DNA of 64,000 nt from Vicinamibacteria bacterium. GTDB taxonomy: Bacteria; Acidobacteriota; Vicinamibacteria; Fen-336; JAGNNV01. Within the stretch, counting starts at the first letter, position 1. The number at the start of each line of letters is the position of its first letter. Below, piece after piece: positions 19,134 through 24,725 of this stretch. The translations under genes were made by a program, and so were the position numbers. The notes under the pieces are model-generated. The model did no database searches. It was not told the DNA's origin and saw only the letters and a list, made by a program, of their open reading frames with translations. The stretch is from contig JAIBCN010000038.1 in assembly GCA_019694155.1 (NCBI GenBank), forward strand, positions 1-64,000. The letters run 5' to 3'.

Positions 19134-20396
19134 ATGAGCCAGCCACTTCCCGAAGCCGACACTCTCGTCCGACATGCCGGCCTCCTCGCGACTTTGAGGG
19201 GCCCCCGGCCCAGGCTGGGCGCGGCTTTGCGCGACCTCGGCGCCATCCGGGACGCCGCAGTGGCCATGCGGGCGGGACGCATCGTGTTCGTGGGTCCAGA
19301 CGCGGATCTTGGCGCGAGCGTGCGCACCACCGCCAACGTCATCGAGATCGACGCGGGCGGAGCCGCGGTCATCCCCGGCTTCGTCGACGCGCACACCCAT
19401 CTGGCCTACGCTGGAGATCGCGACGACGAGATCCGCGCCCGGCTCGCCGGAGCGAGCTACGAAGAGATCGCGTCGCAGGGCGGCGGCATCGTCAGGACGG
19501 TCACCGCCACCCGCGCGGTTTCGCGGGAGGACCTCACTCTGCTCGTGCGCGGCCGGCTCGACCGGGCGCTCGGTCTTGGCACGACCTCCGTCGAGGTGAA
19601 GAGCGGCTACGGCCTGTCCCTCGCCGCCGAGAAGGCCTCGCTCGAAGCGATCACGGCCGCCGCGGCTTCGCACCCGGCGCGCGTGGTGCGCACCTACCTC
19701 GGCGCCCACGAGATCCCGCTCGATCGGAGAGCGGATCGAGAGGGCTATATCGCCGAGATGGTGACGGTGGCGATTCCCGAGATCGCCCGCCTCCGCCTCG
19801 CCGAGTTCGCCGACGTGTTCTGTGAGCGCGGTGTCTTCACGGCGGAAGAGAGCCGCCGCATTCTGGGCGCGGCCGCCGCGGCGGGCCTGGCGCTTCGCAT
19901 CCACGCCGACGAGTTCTCCGATCAGGGGGGCGCGGCGCTCGCCGCCGAGCTCGGCGCTCGCTCCGCCGATCACCTCATCCAGGTGTCCGACGAGGGAATC
20001 GCAGCCATGGCCCGCGCAGGAGTCGTCGCCACCCTGATGCCCGCCGCGTCTTTCTTCCTGAAGCTCGGCCGGTTCGCTCCCGCCCGGAAGATGATCGATG
20101 CCGGGGTGAGCATCGCTCTCGGGTCGGATACGAACCCGGGCGGCGGACTTTCCGCGTCGATACCCTTCGCCATGACCCTGGCGTGCTTCGGCATGGGCCT
20201 GTCCGTCGAGGAAGCCCTCTCCGCCGCCACCATCGGCGGGGCCATGAGCCTCGGCCTCGAGAACGAGGTCGGGAGCATCGAGGTCGGGAAGCGCGCCGAT
20301 CTGCTCATTCTCAGGAGCGACCGGCTTCTCGACCTCGTGCGCGTGGGCGAGAACCCGGTGGCCCGGGTCCTCGCGAACGGACGACTGGCGGCCTAG
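19134..20396 (+). CDS. hutI: Imidazolonepropionase
   Basis: The 420-residue amidohydrolase opens imidazolone-5-propionate to N-formimino-L-glutamate, the third step of histidine breakdown. The metal motif is PGFVDAHTHL (H87 and H89). The family-specific YEEIASQGGGIVRTV and TSVEVKSGYGL follow, and LGSDTNPGG carries the late metal-binding aspartate. The other hut genes are not in the window. The stop codon TAG lies in a CTAG palindrome that also provides the stop of the convergent receptor gene, so the two genes overlap by four bases. Confidence 0.95.
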   Translation: MSQPLPEADTLVRHAGLLATLRGPRPRLGAALRDLGAIRDAAVAMRAGRIVFVGPDADLGASVRTTANVIEIDAGGAAVIPGFVDAHTHLAYAGDRDDEIRARLAGASYEEIASQGGGIVRTVTATRAVSREDLTLLVRGRLDRALGLGTTSVEVKSGYGLSLAAEKASLEAITAAAASHPARVVRTYLGAHEIPLDRRADREGYIAEMVTVAIPEIARLRLAEFADVFCERGVFTAEESRRILGAAAAAGLALRIHADEFSDQGGAALAAELGARSADHLIQVSDEGIAAMARAGVVATLMPAASFFLKLGRFAPARKMIDAGVSIALGSDTNPGGGLSASIPFAMTLACFGMGLSVEEALSAATIGGAMSLGLENEVGSIEVGKRADLLILRSDRLLDLVRVGENPVARVLANGRLAA

Positions 20397-23300
20397 AAGT
20401 TGATCCGGGCCTGAAGCTCGATCCGCCGGTTGCCAGCCTCGCCGCCGCCCCCGCCGCCGCCCGGCCCGAAGCCCATGAAGAAGCCGGCCAGGTTCTTCGA
20501 CTTTCCGAAGTCGGTCGACGTGAGATTGCCGACCGGCGTGCCCTCGTTCTTGCGATTCGTGAGGTTGGAGATGTTGATGGTCAGGGTGAGTCCGGGCCCG
20601 CCGCCGCCGCCCATGCCGCGGCCGCCCATCATGCCGCCGCCGCCGCCGTGATCACCGCCGCCGCCGCCCATTCCCATGGGGGGGCCTCCTCCGCCAGGCC
20701 CGGCTCCACCAGGTCCCCCGCCCGGGGCTCCGCCCGTGGGCGGCGCCGCCGTCCGGGCCTTCTTGAAGAGAATTGTCTTGGAGATGCGCACCGAGAGACT
20801 CGCGAAGCCCGGGCCCTGACCGTAGTTTCTGGGAATGATCTCGCCCACGCCGGAGGTGTTGAGGTAACCGTACTCGGTTTCCACCACGCCGACCTGGCCC
20901 GCGGCGCCGAAGCTCGGCCGGTCGGTGAAGACGGTGTCCAGGTTGGTGTCCCGTCCCGTGGTGATGTTGTAGGGCCGGCCGGTCGACATGATCAGCATGG
21001 GACCGATCCGGATGTCCCAGGGAGCCACGATGTTGCCGCCCGCCATGAGGCGATGACGGACGTCGCCCGAGGCCCGGCCGTAGTCGGCTTCGATGTCGTT
21101 GGGGACGCCTGGAAACGTGCCGGCGCCGTCGGTGTCGCCCTTCGCCCATCCGAGGAAATAGCGAACGAAGAACGAGTTCTTCTGGCCGGGACGCGTGGAC
21201 AGACCCGCCACCATCTGGAACTGCTTGTTTCGCCCCGTGGTCTCGTAGGAGTACACGGCGCCCGGGATGTCGAGAGGCCGCGTGCCGTCGGCGCGCACCG
21301 CGTTGATGTTCCGCGATCGGAGCTGATGGTCGCCGCGTGAGCCGATGAAGGCGAGCGAGCCGGTGAAACGGCCCATCTGCTGCTCCATCGAGAGCGAGCC
21401 CTGGATGGAGCGGGGCGCTCTCGCGTCCTCGTCGACGACCCTCGTGTTCTGCGGCTGCGAGAAGCGATTCAGTATTTCCGCGGTGGGCGCGCTCGTCACC
21501 GATCCGTTCGCGACCCTGATGGTGTCGAGGACCGCGGGGTCCGTCACCACGTACTGAAGGCGTCCGCCGTTCAGGTAACGATTCGCGTCCAGGGTCAGGC
21601 TGTCGTTGACGCGCTCGTAGAACACGCCGAAGCCGCCGCGGGTGACCGTCTTCGGGGTCCGTCCGTCCTTGTTCATCTTGAGCGAATACGCGAAGGACAC
21701 TCGGGGCGCGAGGTCGATCCGGGAAGCCAGGTTGTTCTGGGTTTCCGCGCGAAGGCCGAGCCCGAGGACCAGCCGATCCGACTTCTTCCAGTCGTCATTG
21801 AAGAAGACGCCGGCGTCGGTCTGGGCCACGTTGGCGCCCGGATTCCCGCCCGCCACCGTGTACTGCGAAGGGCCGCCGCCGAGGAGCCGGATCTGCGAAG
21901 GCGAGAATCCCCGCGCCTGCAGCCCGAGAGTCCGGCGATACCGCTCGATGCTGTCCACCGGCCCGAGGATCGGATTGCCATCCGCCCCAAGGATGGGGTT
22001 GAAGTTCGCGTCGAGCGCGGGGCCGACGCCGCCTGCGAAGGTCACGACACCCGCGAAGTTGTTGCGCGAAAGCTCATCGGTGGTGGTGCGGCGGATACGG
22101 AAGCCGCTGCGGAAGGCATGCTTCTTGGTGGCCCACGACACCACGTTTGAGAGTTCGAAACGCGAGCCGTCGGTCACCGAACCGACGGCCGCGCCGCCGC
22201 CCGAGAAGGCCTGCTGAACGTTGAGCGCGGGCGAGGGATCCTGGGAGACCTGGTCGCGGCCGGTCGAACCGTAGCGCAACCGCACTTCGTTGACCGCCTT
22301 GCCCAGGATGCTGTTGAGGGTGAGATCGCCGTTGTTGTCGAAGCTGCTCGAATCGTATCCCCGCGAAGGCAGGTCGTAGTCGCCGATGCCGTTGCCTGTG
22401 GCCTCGTTCTCCGAGTGGGAATAGCGAACGGTCAGGGACTGCTTGTCGTTGATCTGCCAGTCGATGCGGGGCGAGTAGCTCAGCCGGCTCTGCGGACGGA
22501 CGAGGGTCACCGCGAAGGGGGTCGGCACGAGGTTCGCATCAAGCACGGTGGCGTTGACGGTCTGGTTGTTGTCCGAGCTGCGATAGTCGGAGTCGAACGA
22601 GAAGGAGGCTTTGCCCTTCGCGATCGGCCCCGCGATCTCGAAGCTGTAGTCCTCGCGCGAGTAGGGCGGCTTGTTGTCGGCGTAGGGGTTCCGGGTGTTG
22701 AGCTTGTCGTTGTTGTAGCGCAGCGACAGCCCGCCCCGGTAGCGGTCGGTCCCCGGGCGGGTGATGATCTCGATGCGGCCAAAGCCCATGCGGTCGAACT
22801 CGGAAGAGAACGGGTTCGAGTTCATACGGATCTCCCGGATGGAGGCCTTGCTCGGGATACGGCCCCCGGTGAAGCCGTCGATGTAGATCTGTCCTCCGTT
22901 CGGACCGCCCGAGTTGCCGGCCAGCGCCTGGAGATAGGAGGCGAGTTCATCGGGGTCGTCGGGGAGCGCCTCGATATCCTGCTCCTTGAGAACGATGGCG
23001 CCCGCGTTCTCGGACGCGCCGAGACTCAGCGTGGTCGCATTCTCTTCGACGGTCACGGCCTCCGAGCGCGCCACTTCCAGCTGAATGTCCTGAGTCATCG
23101 GCGCCCCTGCCTTCATTTCGATGTTGGCGGCGGCGAACGACATGAAGCCCGTCTTCTCCGCGGTGAGGACGTAGGTGCCCTCGGGCATCGACAGGCGGTA
23201 GCGCCCTTCCTTGTCGGACGTGACCTGCCTCGTGGTGGTGCCGATGAGAATCACCTTGACCCCGGAGACCACCGCTCCCGTCTGGTCCGTGACCTTGCCT

Positions 23301-23422
23301 TCCATCACCACATCCGCCGCTTCGGCGAGGGCGCGGCCGGCGGGGAGGAGGGCAAGCGACAGGGCGGCGAGGAGACCAAGGGCGCGGAGCCTGAGGCGCG
23401 GAAACGACATCGAGGGGGTCAT
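20393..23422 (-). CDS. Oar-type TonB-dependent receptor with glycine-rich C-terminal insertion
   Basis: The 1009-residue outer-membrane protein has a signal peptide (ALGLLAALSLALLPAGRALA) and a carboxypeptidase-regulatory-like domain (about 30-115, MEGKVTDQTGAVVSG). A plug-like region (YIDGFTGGRIPSKASI) and a large beta-barrel follow, ending in the aromatic-terminated strand ELQARINF. An unusual glycine- and methionine-rich stretch (plus-strand 20600-20740) sits between the last barrel strands, and a second glycine run (20440-20470) stands just before the last strand. Start chosen at 23422 (MTPSMSF); an ATG four codons later is also possible. It lies 73 bp after a DUF5666-like gene with similar glycine-rich tracts, so the two probably form an operon. 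Substrate unknown. Confidence 0.87.
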   Translation of the reverse strand: MTPSMSFPRLRLRALGLLAALSLALLPAGRALAEAADVVMEGKVTDQTGAVVSGVKVILIGTTTRQVTSDKEGRYRLSMPEGTYVLTAEKTGFMSFAAANIEMKAGAPMTQDIQLEVARSEAVTVEENATTLSLGASENAGAIVLKEQDIEALPDDPDELASYLQALAGNSGGPNGGQIYIDGFTGGRIPSKASIREIRMNSNPFSSEFDRMGFGRIEIITRPGTDRYRGGLSLRYNNDKLNTRNPYADNKPPYSREDYSFEIAGPIAKGKASFSFDSDYRSSDNNQTVNATVLDANLVPTPFAVTLVRPQSRLSYSPRIDWQINDKQSLTVRYSHSENEATGNGIGDYDLPSRGYDSSSFDNNGDLTLNSILGKAVNEVRLRYGSTGRDQVSQDPSPALNVQQAFSGGGAAVGSVTDGSRFELSNVVSWATKKHAFRSGFRIRRTTTDELSRNNFAGVVTFAGGVGPALDANFNPILGADGNPILGPVDSIERYRRTLGLQARGFSPSQIRLLGGGPSQYTVAGGNPGANVAQTDAGVFFNDDWKKSDRLVLGLGLRAETQNNLASRIDLAPRVSFAYSLKMNKDGRTPKTVTRGGFGVFYERVNDSLTLDANRYLNGGRLQYVVTDPAVLDTIRVANGSVTSAPTAEILNRFSQPQNTRVVDEDARAPRSIQGSLSMEQQMGRFTGSLAFIGSRGDHQLRSRNINAVRADGTRPLDIPGAVYSYETTGRNKQFQMVAGLSTRPGQKNSFFVRYFLGWAKGDTDGAGTFPGVPNDIEADYGRASGDVRHRLMAGGNIVAPWDIRIGPMLIMSTGRPYNITTGRDTNLDTVFTDRPSFGAAGQVGVVETEYGYLNTSGVGEIIPRNYGQGPGFASLSVRISKTILFKKARTAAPPTGGAPGGGPGGAGPGGGGPPMGMGGGGGDHGGGGGMMGGRGMGGGGGPGLTLTINISNLTNRKNEGTPVGNLTSTDFGKSKNLAGFFMGFGPGGGGGGGEAGNRRIELQARINF

Positions 23423-23495
23423 GAAAGTGGTGCCGATCTTCTTTGTGAGTGAGAGTTCTGTGGGAGGTTCTTGATGGGCGCGGTTTGAATCGTTA

Positions 23496-24725
23496 TCAGG
23501 GCACGCCCAGGGCGCCGTCGAGGAGGCCCGCGGGCATGCCCACGTCGACCCCGCCGCTGCGATTCGCGCGCGAGGCGAAGGCCTCGATTCCCGCGAGCAT
23601 GTTGAAGGCGACCGCCTTGCCGGACGGGTCGATCCGGCCGACGACGGCGCCAACCCAGTCGTCTTTCTTGAGGTCGGCCAGGGTGATGGCGGGCATCCGT
23701 TCCACGATGTCCTCCATCCCGCGACCCCCGCGGCCGCCGCCTCCCGGACCGCGGCCACCCATTCCCATGGCGGGGGCGGCGCCTGGGTTTTGTCCCCGCG
23801 CTCCTTCCGGCCGGCCTCCGGCGGGGGCGCTCATACCGCCGCCCATGCCACCGCCCATGGCTCCCGGCCTTCCGGCGCCGCCGAACATCGCGGCCATCTC
23901 CGCGGGGATCCTGCGGATCGAGGCGCCGGGAGCGAGCGCGATGGTGAACTTGTGGTTCGACTCGAGGTCCTTCACGTTCATCGTGCCCGACGCGGCGTCG
24001 ATCTTCTCTATGGCGAGAGCCATGGTCTTGAAGGACCCGAAGACCACGCGCTCGGCCGTGACCTGCTTCCCGTCCTCCGACCTCGTGCCCAGCACGCGGA
24101 CCTGATCGGCCGCGGCCATGTCGGCGATGCCCGCGGGCCTGGCGTCGTCGAACTTGACCGACGTGTCCGAGTAGCGGTGAAGCGTCGCTTTCTTCGCATC
24201 GACCACGAGGGTGACGGGCGCCGTCGCCGCGCCGGCCGCGGCCATCGTTCGATTCGCGGTCTGCAGGATGAACTGGCCGTTCGCGGGGTCCGCGGAGATG
24301 AGGGTGCCCGCGATGCCCCGCTCGCGCCAGGCTCGCTGCTCGCTTTCGTTGCGGGCCGCGAGATCGGTCTGGGCCATGATCACCACACGGAGCGCCCCCT
24401 CGACCCGGTTGTCGGTTCTCGCACCGCCGCGGACCAGCACGCGATCACCGGGCGCGATGCCGTCGAAGGGGATGGTCACGGCGTTCTGGAGCGACTTCTC
24501 GCCCGGGGCCACCTTCATCACCGTTCCCTTTTCAGCGAGGGCGATGGTGAGGCTGGCGCCGTCCTCGACCTTCATCTTCAGCGTCCGCGAAGAGGCCTCC
24601 ACCGATTCGACCTGGCCCAGGAGGCTCAGGGGCGCCGGGCCGGGGGCCTGGGCGAAGGTGGAGGGGCCGACGAGGAAAAGACCCGCGACCAGACCGGCGA
24701 ACCAAGGCGTCACAATCCGTTTCAA
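23496..24725 (-). CDS. Secreted DUF5666-like protein with glycine-rich region
   Basis: The 409-residue secreted protein has a signal peptide (MKRIVTPWFAGLVAGLFLVG, then ...TFAQA). It then has repeated small beta-barrel modules of the DUF5666 kind, for example LLGQVESVEASSRTLKMKV, GIAGTLISADPANGQFIL and LAIEKIDAASGTMNVKDL. From about residue 300 a tract of Gly, Met, Ala, Pro and Arg (GAMGGGMGGGMSAPAGG) precedes a last module. The start is TTG at 24725: a GGGGAG ribosome site lies seven bases upstream and the signal peptide begins there, whereas the longer frame from a GTG at 24824 adds residues that spoil the signal peptide. Function unknown; it probably acts in the periplasm or at the surface with the receptor encoded downstream. 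Confidence 0.75.
   Translation of the reverse strand: MKRIVTPWFAGLVAGLFLVGPSTFAQAPGPAPLSLLGQVESVEASSRTLKMKVEDGASLTIALAEKGTVMKVAPGEKSLQNAVTIPFDGIAPGDRVLVRGGARTDNRVEGALRVVIMAQTDLAARNESEQRAWRERGIAGTLISADPANGQFILQTANRTMAAAGAATAPVTLVVDAKKATLHRYSDTSVKFDDARPAGIADMAAADQVRVLGTRSEDGKQVTAERVVFGSFKTMALAIEKIDAASGTMNVKDLESNHKFTIALAPGASIRRIPAEMAAMFGGAGRPGAMGGGMGGGMSAPAGGRPEGARGQNPGAAPAMGMGGRGPGGGGRGGRGMEDIVERMPAITLADLKKDDWVGAVVGRIDPSGKAVAFNMLAGIEAFASRANRSGGVDVGMPAGLLDGALGVP

Follow-up and report, generated by a model that had tools for sequence, protein, structure and literature searches.

The window analysed here, a stretch of 64,000 nucleotides from a Vicinamibacteria bacterium (contig JAIBCN010000038.1), carries on its minus strand two neighboring genes whose products both contain glycine-rich tracts. 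One of them (20393..23422) encodes a TonB-dependent-receptor-like outer-membrane protein of 1009 aa with a signal peptide, a CarboxypepD_reg domain, a plug, and a 22-strand barrel, as judged by Pfam, AlphaFold, and Foldseek. The other (23496..24725), located 5' of the receptor gene on the same strand with a spacer of 73 nt, encodes a protein of 409 aa, hereafter the partner, with a signal-peptide-like N-terminus and three OB-like (DUF5666/CusF-like) domains according to the same three methods, Pfam being applied to 58 relatives. Both genes and both tracts described in an earlier sequence-only reading of this DNA are indeed in place. The main receptor tract comprises 58 residues in the turn between strands 20 and 21 (20594..20767, minus strand, from pLDDT and turn statistics), and the tract of the partner is a Gly/Met/Pro-rich disordered insert of ca. 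55 residues inside the third OB-like domain (23718..23882, minus strand, from pLDDT and alignments). A second, short Gly run appears in the last outer loop of the receptor, between strands 21 and 22 (20435..20479, minus strand), both in the model and in the family alignment. The densest 20-residue stretch of the receptor has 14 Gly, a value that none of 3000 protein shuffles reached, and that of the partner has 11, reached by 6 of 3000 shuffles, the partner tract being significant yet less extreme. A promoter scan found none. The stop codon of the receptor gene overlaps (20393-20396) that of a convergent gene on the plus strand (19134-20396), which we take to be imidazolonepropionase-like.

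The receptor passes the curated cut-off of PF25183 (OMP_b-brl_4) with 174.2 bits against 30 (E-value 6.2e-51) and also matches PF13620 (2.6e-17). Its AlphaFold model, which begins at residue 2 (mean pLDDT 81), has 22 barrel strands, numbered by hand from the strand list of the model, and an N-terminal plug, so that the predicted fold is that of a TonB-dependent transporter. The top Foldseek match is FusA (4zgv, E-value 9.7e-27) and the best solved relatives are TonB-dependent transporters. The pLDDT falls below 50 at model residues 889-939, between strands 872-884 and 943-951, corresponding to the main tract, and at residues 981-995, corresponding to the short Gly run of loop 21/22. The segments following even-numbered strands are 3, 11, 2, 3, 2, 6, 2, 6, and 3 residues long and then 58, compared to 5-76 residues after odd-numbered strands. 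Because both termini of a TonB-dependent barrel are periplasmic, the short turns after even strands should be periplasmic as well, and the tract, which follows strand 20, would therefore be the tenth periplasmic turn. Strand parity thus predicts that the main tract is an enlarged periplasmic 20/21 turn, the other nine having 2-11 residues. The sequence-only reading had located the receptor tract where a surface loop would be, which holds for the short GGGG run close to the C-terminus (outer loop 21/22) but not for the main tract. None of 17 further receptors of this genome, namely the ORFs passing a C-terminal pattern (the genome has 45 PF25183 matches), shows a tract at its C-terminus; these include the two other receptors of the window, which had already been described as devoid of it.

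The partner model (pLDDT 83) shows three OB-like domains, with pLDDT values below 50 across most of residues 292-334, i.e., the insert in the third domain, and Foldseek matched it to assorted OB proteins. Among 58 partner sequences (alignments exclude the weak partial match L142, and alignment A3 also L119, L044, L099, and L100), DUF5666 (PF18914) was matched by 43 and CusF (PF11604) by 52, both at E <= 0.1 and the latter with a best value of 3.4e-8. The window partner itself was above the Pfam cut-off for neither (12.2 bits for DUF5666, the curated cut-off being 27), and the best match of the partner profile to solved structures had an E-value of 0.048. A hydrophobic N-terminal stretch is present in 46 of the 58 sequences and a lipobox-like motif in two; judging from this N-terminus, the partner is probably secreted and periplasmic. 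Combined with the strand parity of the receptor, this would place the main tracts of both proteins probably in the periplasm, in agreement with the idea that they face the same compartment.

The resemblance to CusF suggests that the partner could be a copper carrier with Met-rich, metal-binding tracts. Besides the Pfam matches, Foldseek aligned it with CusF 2vb2 (E-value 5.3e-3, TM-score by target length 0.70), indicating that the OB fold is shared, and the Met fractions of the two tracts are correlated in the raw data (rho 0.51). However, the OB fold by itself can account for the CusF match, and the copper ligands of CusF are conserved His and Met residues: in the 58 partners no His or Cys column and a single Met column (M117, 84%) were conserved at a level of at least 60%. 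The Met correlation shrinks to r 0.15-0.20 when relatedness is corrected for by contrasts, and a Met-Met coupling of the tracts was discarded. Given the absence of conserved ligand columns, copper handling was rejected, and we regard it as highly improbable.

The receptor and its triple-OB partner are a conserved two-gene unit of Acidobacteriota. Members of the partner family were found in 57 of the 297 genomes of the phylum sample, with about one copy each, and the receptor lies directly downstream at 53 of the 56 partner loci retrieved (from 55 genomes). In all 60 loci holding the two genes they are on one strand. Receptor and partner also coincide in the same six of the 60 nearest genomes, where an extra partner match (G037, 4.6e-4) is weak and interrupted by a stop. 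When named genomes were searched with the receptor, the best 80 of 558 relatives were all titled Acidobacteria or subgroups, and the partner was present at 59 of these best 80 loci; a plasmid search gave distant receptors only and did not find the partner. The pair is also present in a cultured strain, Pyrinomonas methylaliphatogenes K22 (L147). No adjoining receptor was seen at the weak match L142 or at L091 and L129, where the partner genes stand alone. As to further neighbors, a zf-HC2 anti-sigma-like protein is encoded upstream on the same strand in 18 of 108 pair loci (e.g., L196:491-1063), an unassigned secreted protein upstream on the same strand in 21 (e.g., L122:420-1388), and another unassigned protein downstream in 17. 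A conserved third gene was rejected since these neighbors recur in only part of the 108 loci, and they therefore give no substrate clue for the window.

Conservation of the tracts was assessed in 109 distinct complete pairs (112 minus three duplicates, with L043, L116, L119, L164, L168, L205, and L218 barred). An insert of at least 30 aa with at least 30% Gly is present in 103 of the receptors, 58 of the partners, and both members of 57 pairs, the quartiles of receptor insert length being 51-62. The few receptors lacking Gly mostly retain Ser/Ala/Pro-rich linkers (L181, L201, L209, and L213), and the inserts of L057 and L221 fall just short. Partner inserts that are not Gly-rich are mostly low-complexity still, with Ala, Pro, Gln, and Ser. 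Because such inserts mostly remain low-complexity linkers, disorder rather than glycine seems to be the property conserved.

Matching tracts had been taken to suggest interaction, a suggestion that orthologous pairs with a tract in only one partner argue against, and such pairs were found. At L048 the receptor insert has 47 residues and the partner linker segment contains 4 Gly in 48 residues, and of 100 pairs with a receptor insert of at least 35% Gly, 12 have a partner insert below 20% Gly. Among the 67 of the 80 named loci with a complete C-terminus and sufficient upstream sequence, 49 have partner and receptor tract, one the partner only, 13 the tract only, and four neither (49/1 vs. 13/4, Fisher p 0.013, a value that ignores relatedness). 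Of the 17 receptors that have no partner upstream, 13 therefore retain the tract (in one of the 13, L184, the partner is encoded on the opposite strand), and the role of the tract, if any, would be separate from the partner. The joint evolution that had also been proposed was recovered, weakly, for glycine content and not for length. Tract lengths are uncorrelated (independent contrasts r 0.08, p 0.39), and length coupling was dropped. Gly fractions of the two tracts covary after correction for relatedness, with a contrast r of 0.35 (p 0.0002) that becomes 0.30 when locus GC is taken into account, compared to r 0.11 (p 0.26) in a control of partner tract against receptor outer loop. Without six low-Gly receptors the coefficient falls to 0.24 (p 0.015), and additionally allowing for GC lowers it to 0.19 (p 0.049, Spearman p 0.08).

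In the nucleotide sequence, a decayed CCG/18-mer tandem array underlies the receptor tract and a short array of 12-mers that of the partner. Gap events per residue amount to 0.066 in the receptor tract and 0.070 in the partner tract, compared to 0.0020 elsewhere in the receptor. These values come from 74 receptor pairs with identities of 72% or more, which overlap and therefore give a ratio rather than a test. Indel density in either tract thus exceeds that of the remaining receptor more than 30-fold, amounting to a rapid and strongly slippage-like length change such as the sequence-only reading had suspected. One tract can change alone, as in L152 and L160, where the receptor tract has 59 and 58 residues and the partner tract 65 and 41. 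The Gly fractions of both tracts increase with locus GC, whose median was 0.58 over the 57 receptors surveyed for inserts (the truncated L043, L116, and L119 left out).

The explanation that we find best, with odds slightly in its favor, is a conserved unit of transporter and periplasmic partner with disordered, slippage-prone linkers. The receptor would be an outer-membrane transporter of the TonB-dependent type and the triple-OB secreted protein its dedicated partner, the Gly-rich stretches acting as intrinsically disordered linkers in the periplasmic 20/21 turn of the former and in the third OB domain of the latter. The partner may act together with the receptor in the periplasm, where it would most likely receive or handle the import of the receptor or else aid the plug/TonB cycle. 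Selection would keep a flexible linker of ca. 40-85 residues but leave its exact sequence and length free to drift through slippage; Gly content would track this drift and GC content more than any partner-to-partner matching. The two lone partner genes count against this explanation, as do the tracts retained in receptors without an upstream partner and the covariation of Gly fractions, which pure drift would not predict. The observation is of a real, family-wide feature. Its strong signal lies in the pairing of the genes and in the odd position of the disordered turn, and the likeness of the tracts comes mostly from low-complexity drift common to both.

It is possible, but doubtful, that both tracts are simply near-neutral by-products of GC-rich trinucleotide slippage at two permissive turns, alike in composition only. 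The more than 30-fold indel density, the rise of both Gly fractions with GC, and the tandem arrays all fit such an origin, as does a published account of low-complexity regions, in which slippage is one source and the glycine codon GGC is among the most frequent (PMC6821194). However, the insert is fairly constant in length, phylum-wide, and confined to one of ten periplasmic turns; it is also kept at moderate locus GC and was not seen in the 17 pattern-passing C-termini of the same genome. The covariation of Gly fractions, exceeding its control, together with the probable periplasmic position of both tracts and the association of partner presence with receptor tract, would suit coevolution of the two tracts as a docking device, through mutual binding or co-condensation in the periplasm. 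We consider this unlikely, given that the tract persists in most receptors that have no partner upstream, that lengths are uncorrelated, that near relatives alter a single tract, and that the Gly correlation weakens as described when GC and the low-Gly receptors are accounted for. Even less probable is that the disordered periplasmic arms of both proteins meet, bind or co-condense, and hand over the substrate.

Compared to TonB-dependent transporters such as FusA (4zgv), FepA, and SusC, which share the plugged 22-strand barrel and are the best Foldseek matches, the receptor described here adds the ca. 58-residue disordered insert in a predicted periplasmic turn and a dedicated upstream OB-domain protein. 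It has the same Pfam match and domain order as PF25183 receptors with CarboxypepD_reg, although the 17 other C-termini of this type in its genome (pattern-passing ORFs) have no tract. The partner family has OB-like domains in common with DUF5666 and CusF, but arranged as three in tandem, the third interrupted by a disordered insert, and it has no conserved metal-ligand set. In the SusC-SusD system a receptor likewise has a dedicated partner encoded next door; SusD is a surface lipoprotein, whereas the partner here is encoded upstream, has an OB fold, and mostly lacks a lipobox. The literature searched, whose coverage leaves out many subscription papers, gave no description of the pair or the tract. 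Acidobacteria are abundant in soil and have many receptors of unknown substrate, and this pair would offer a defined unit in which a possible periplasmic hand-over could be studied, marked across the phylum by a constant, usually single-copy partner gene and an unusual, predicted periplasmic disordered arm. The tracts are moreover a natural case of how slippage-prone disordered regions persist.

Some receptors that lack the OB partner have other neighbors. At L164, L168, and L189, a different small secreted protein is encoded immediately upstream of a tract-bearing receptor. It has weak, below-cut-off matches to LTXXQ, Metal_resist, and DUF4890 and Gly/Pro-rich ends, and might be a further partner whose tail is of low complexity. 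Beside related partnerless receptors, a solute-binding protein is found at L200 (by Pfam) and L194 (by sequence likeness), and a PepSY_TM protein upstream of another at L221. Neighbors of these last kinds are linked to iron, which hints at iron-type uptake among the wider receptor family.
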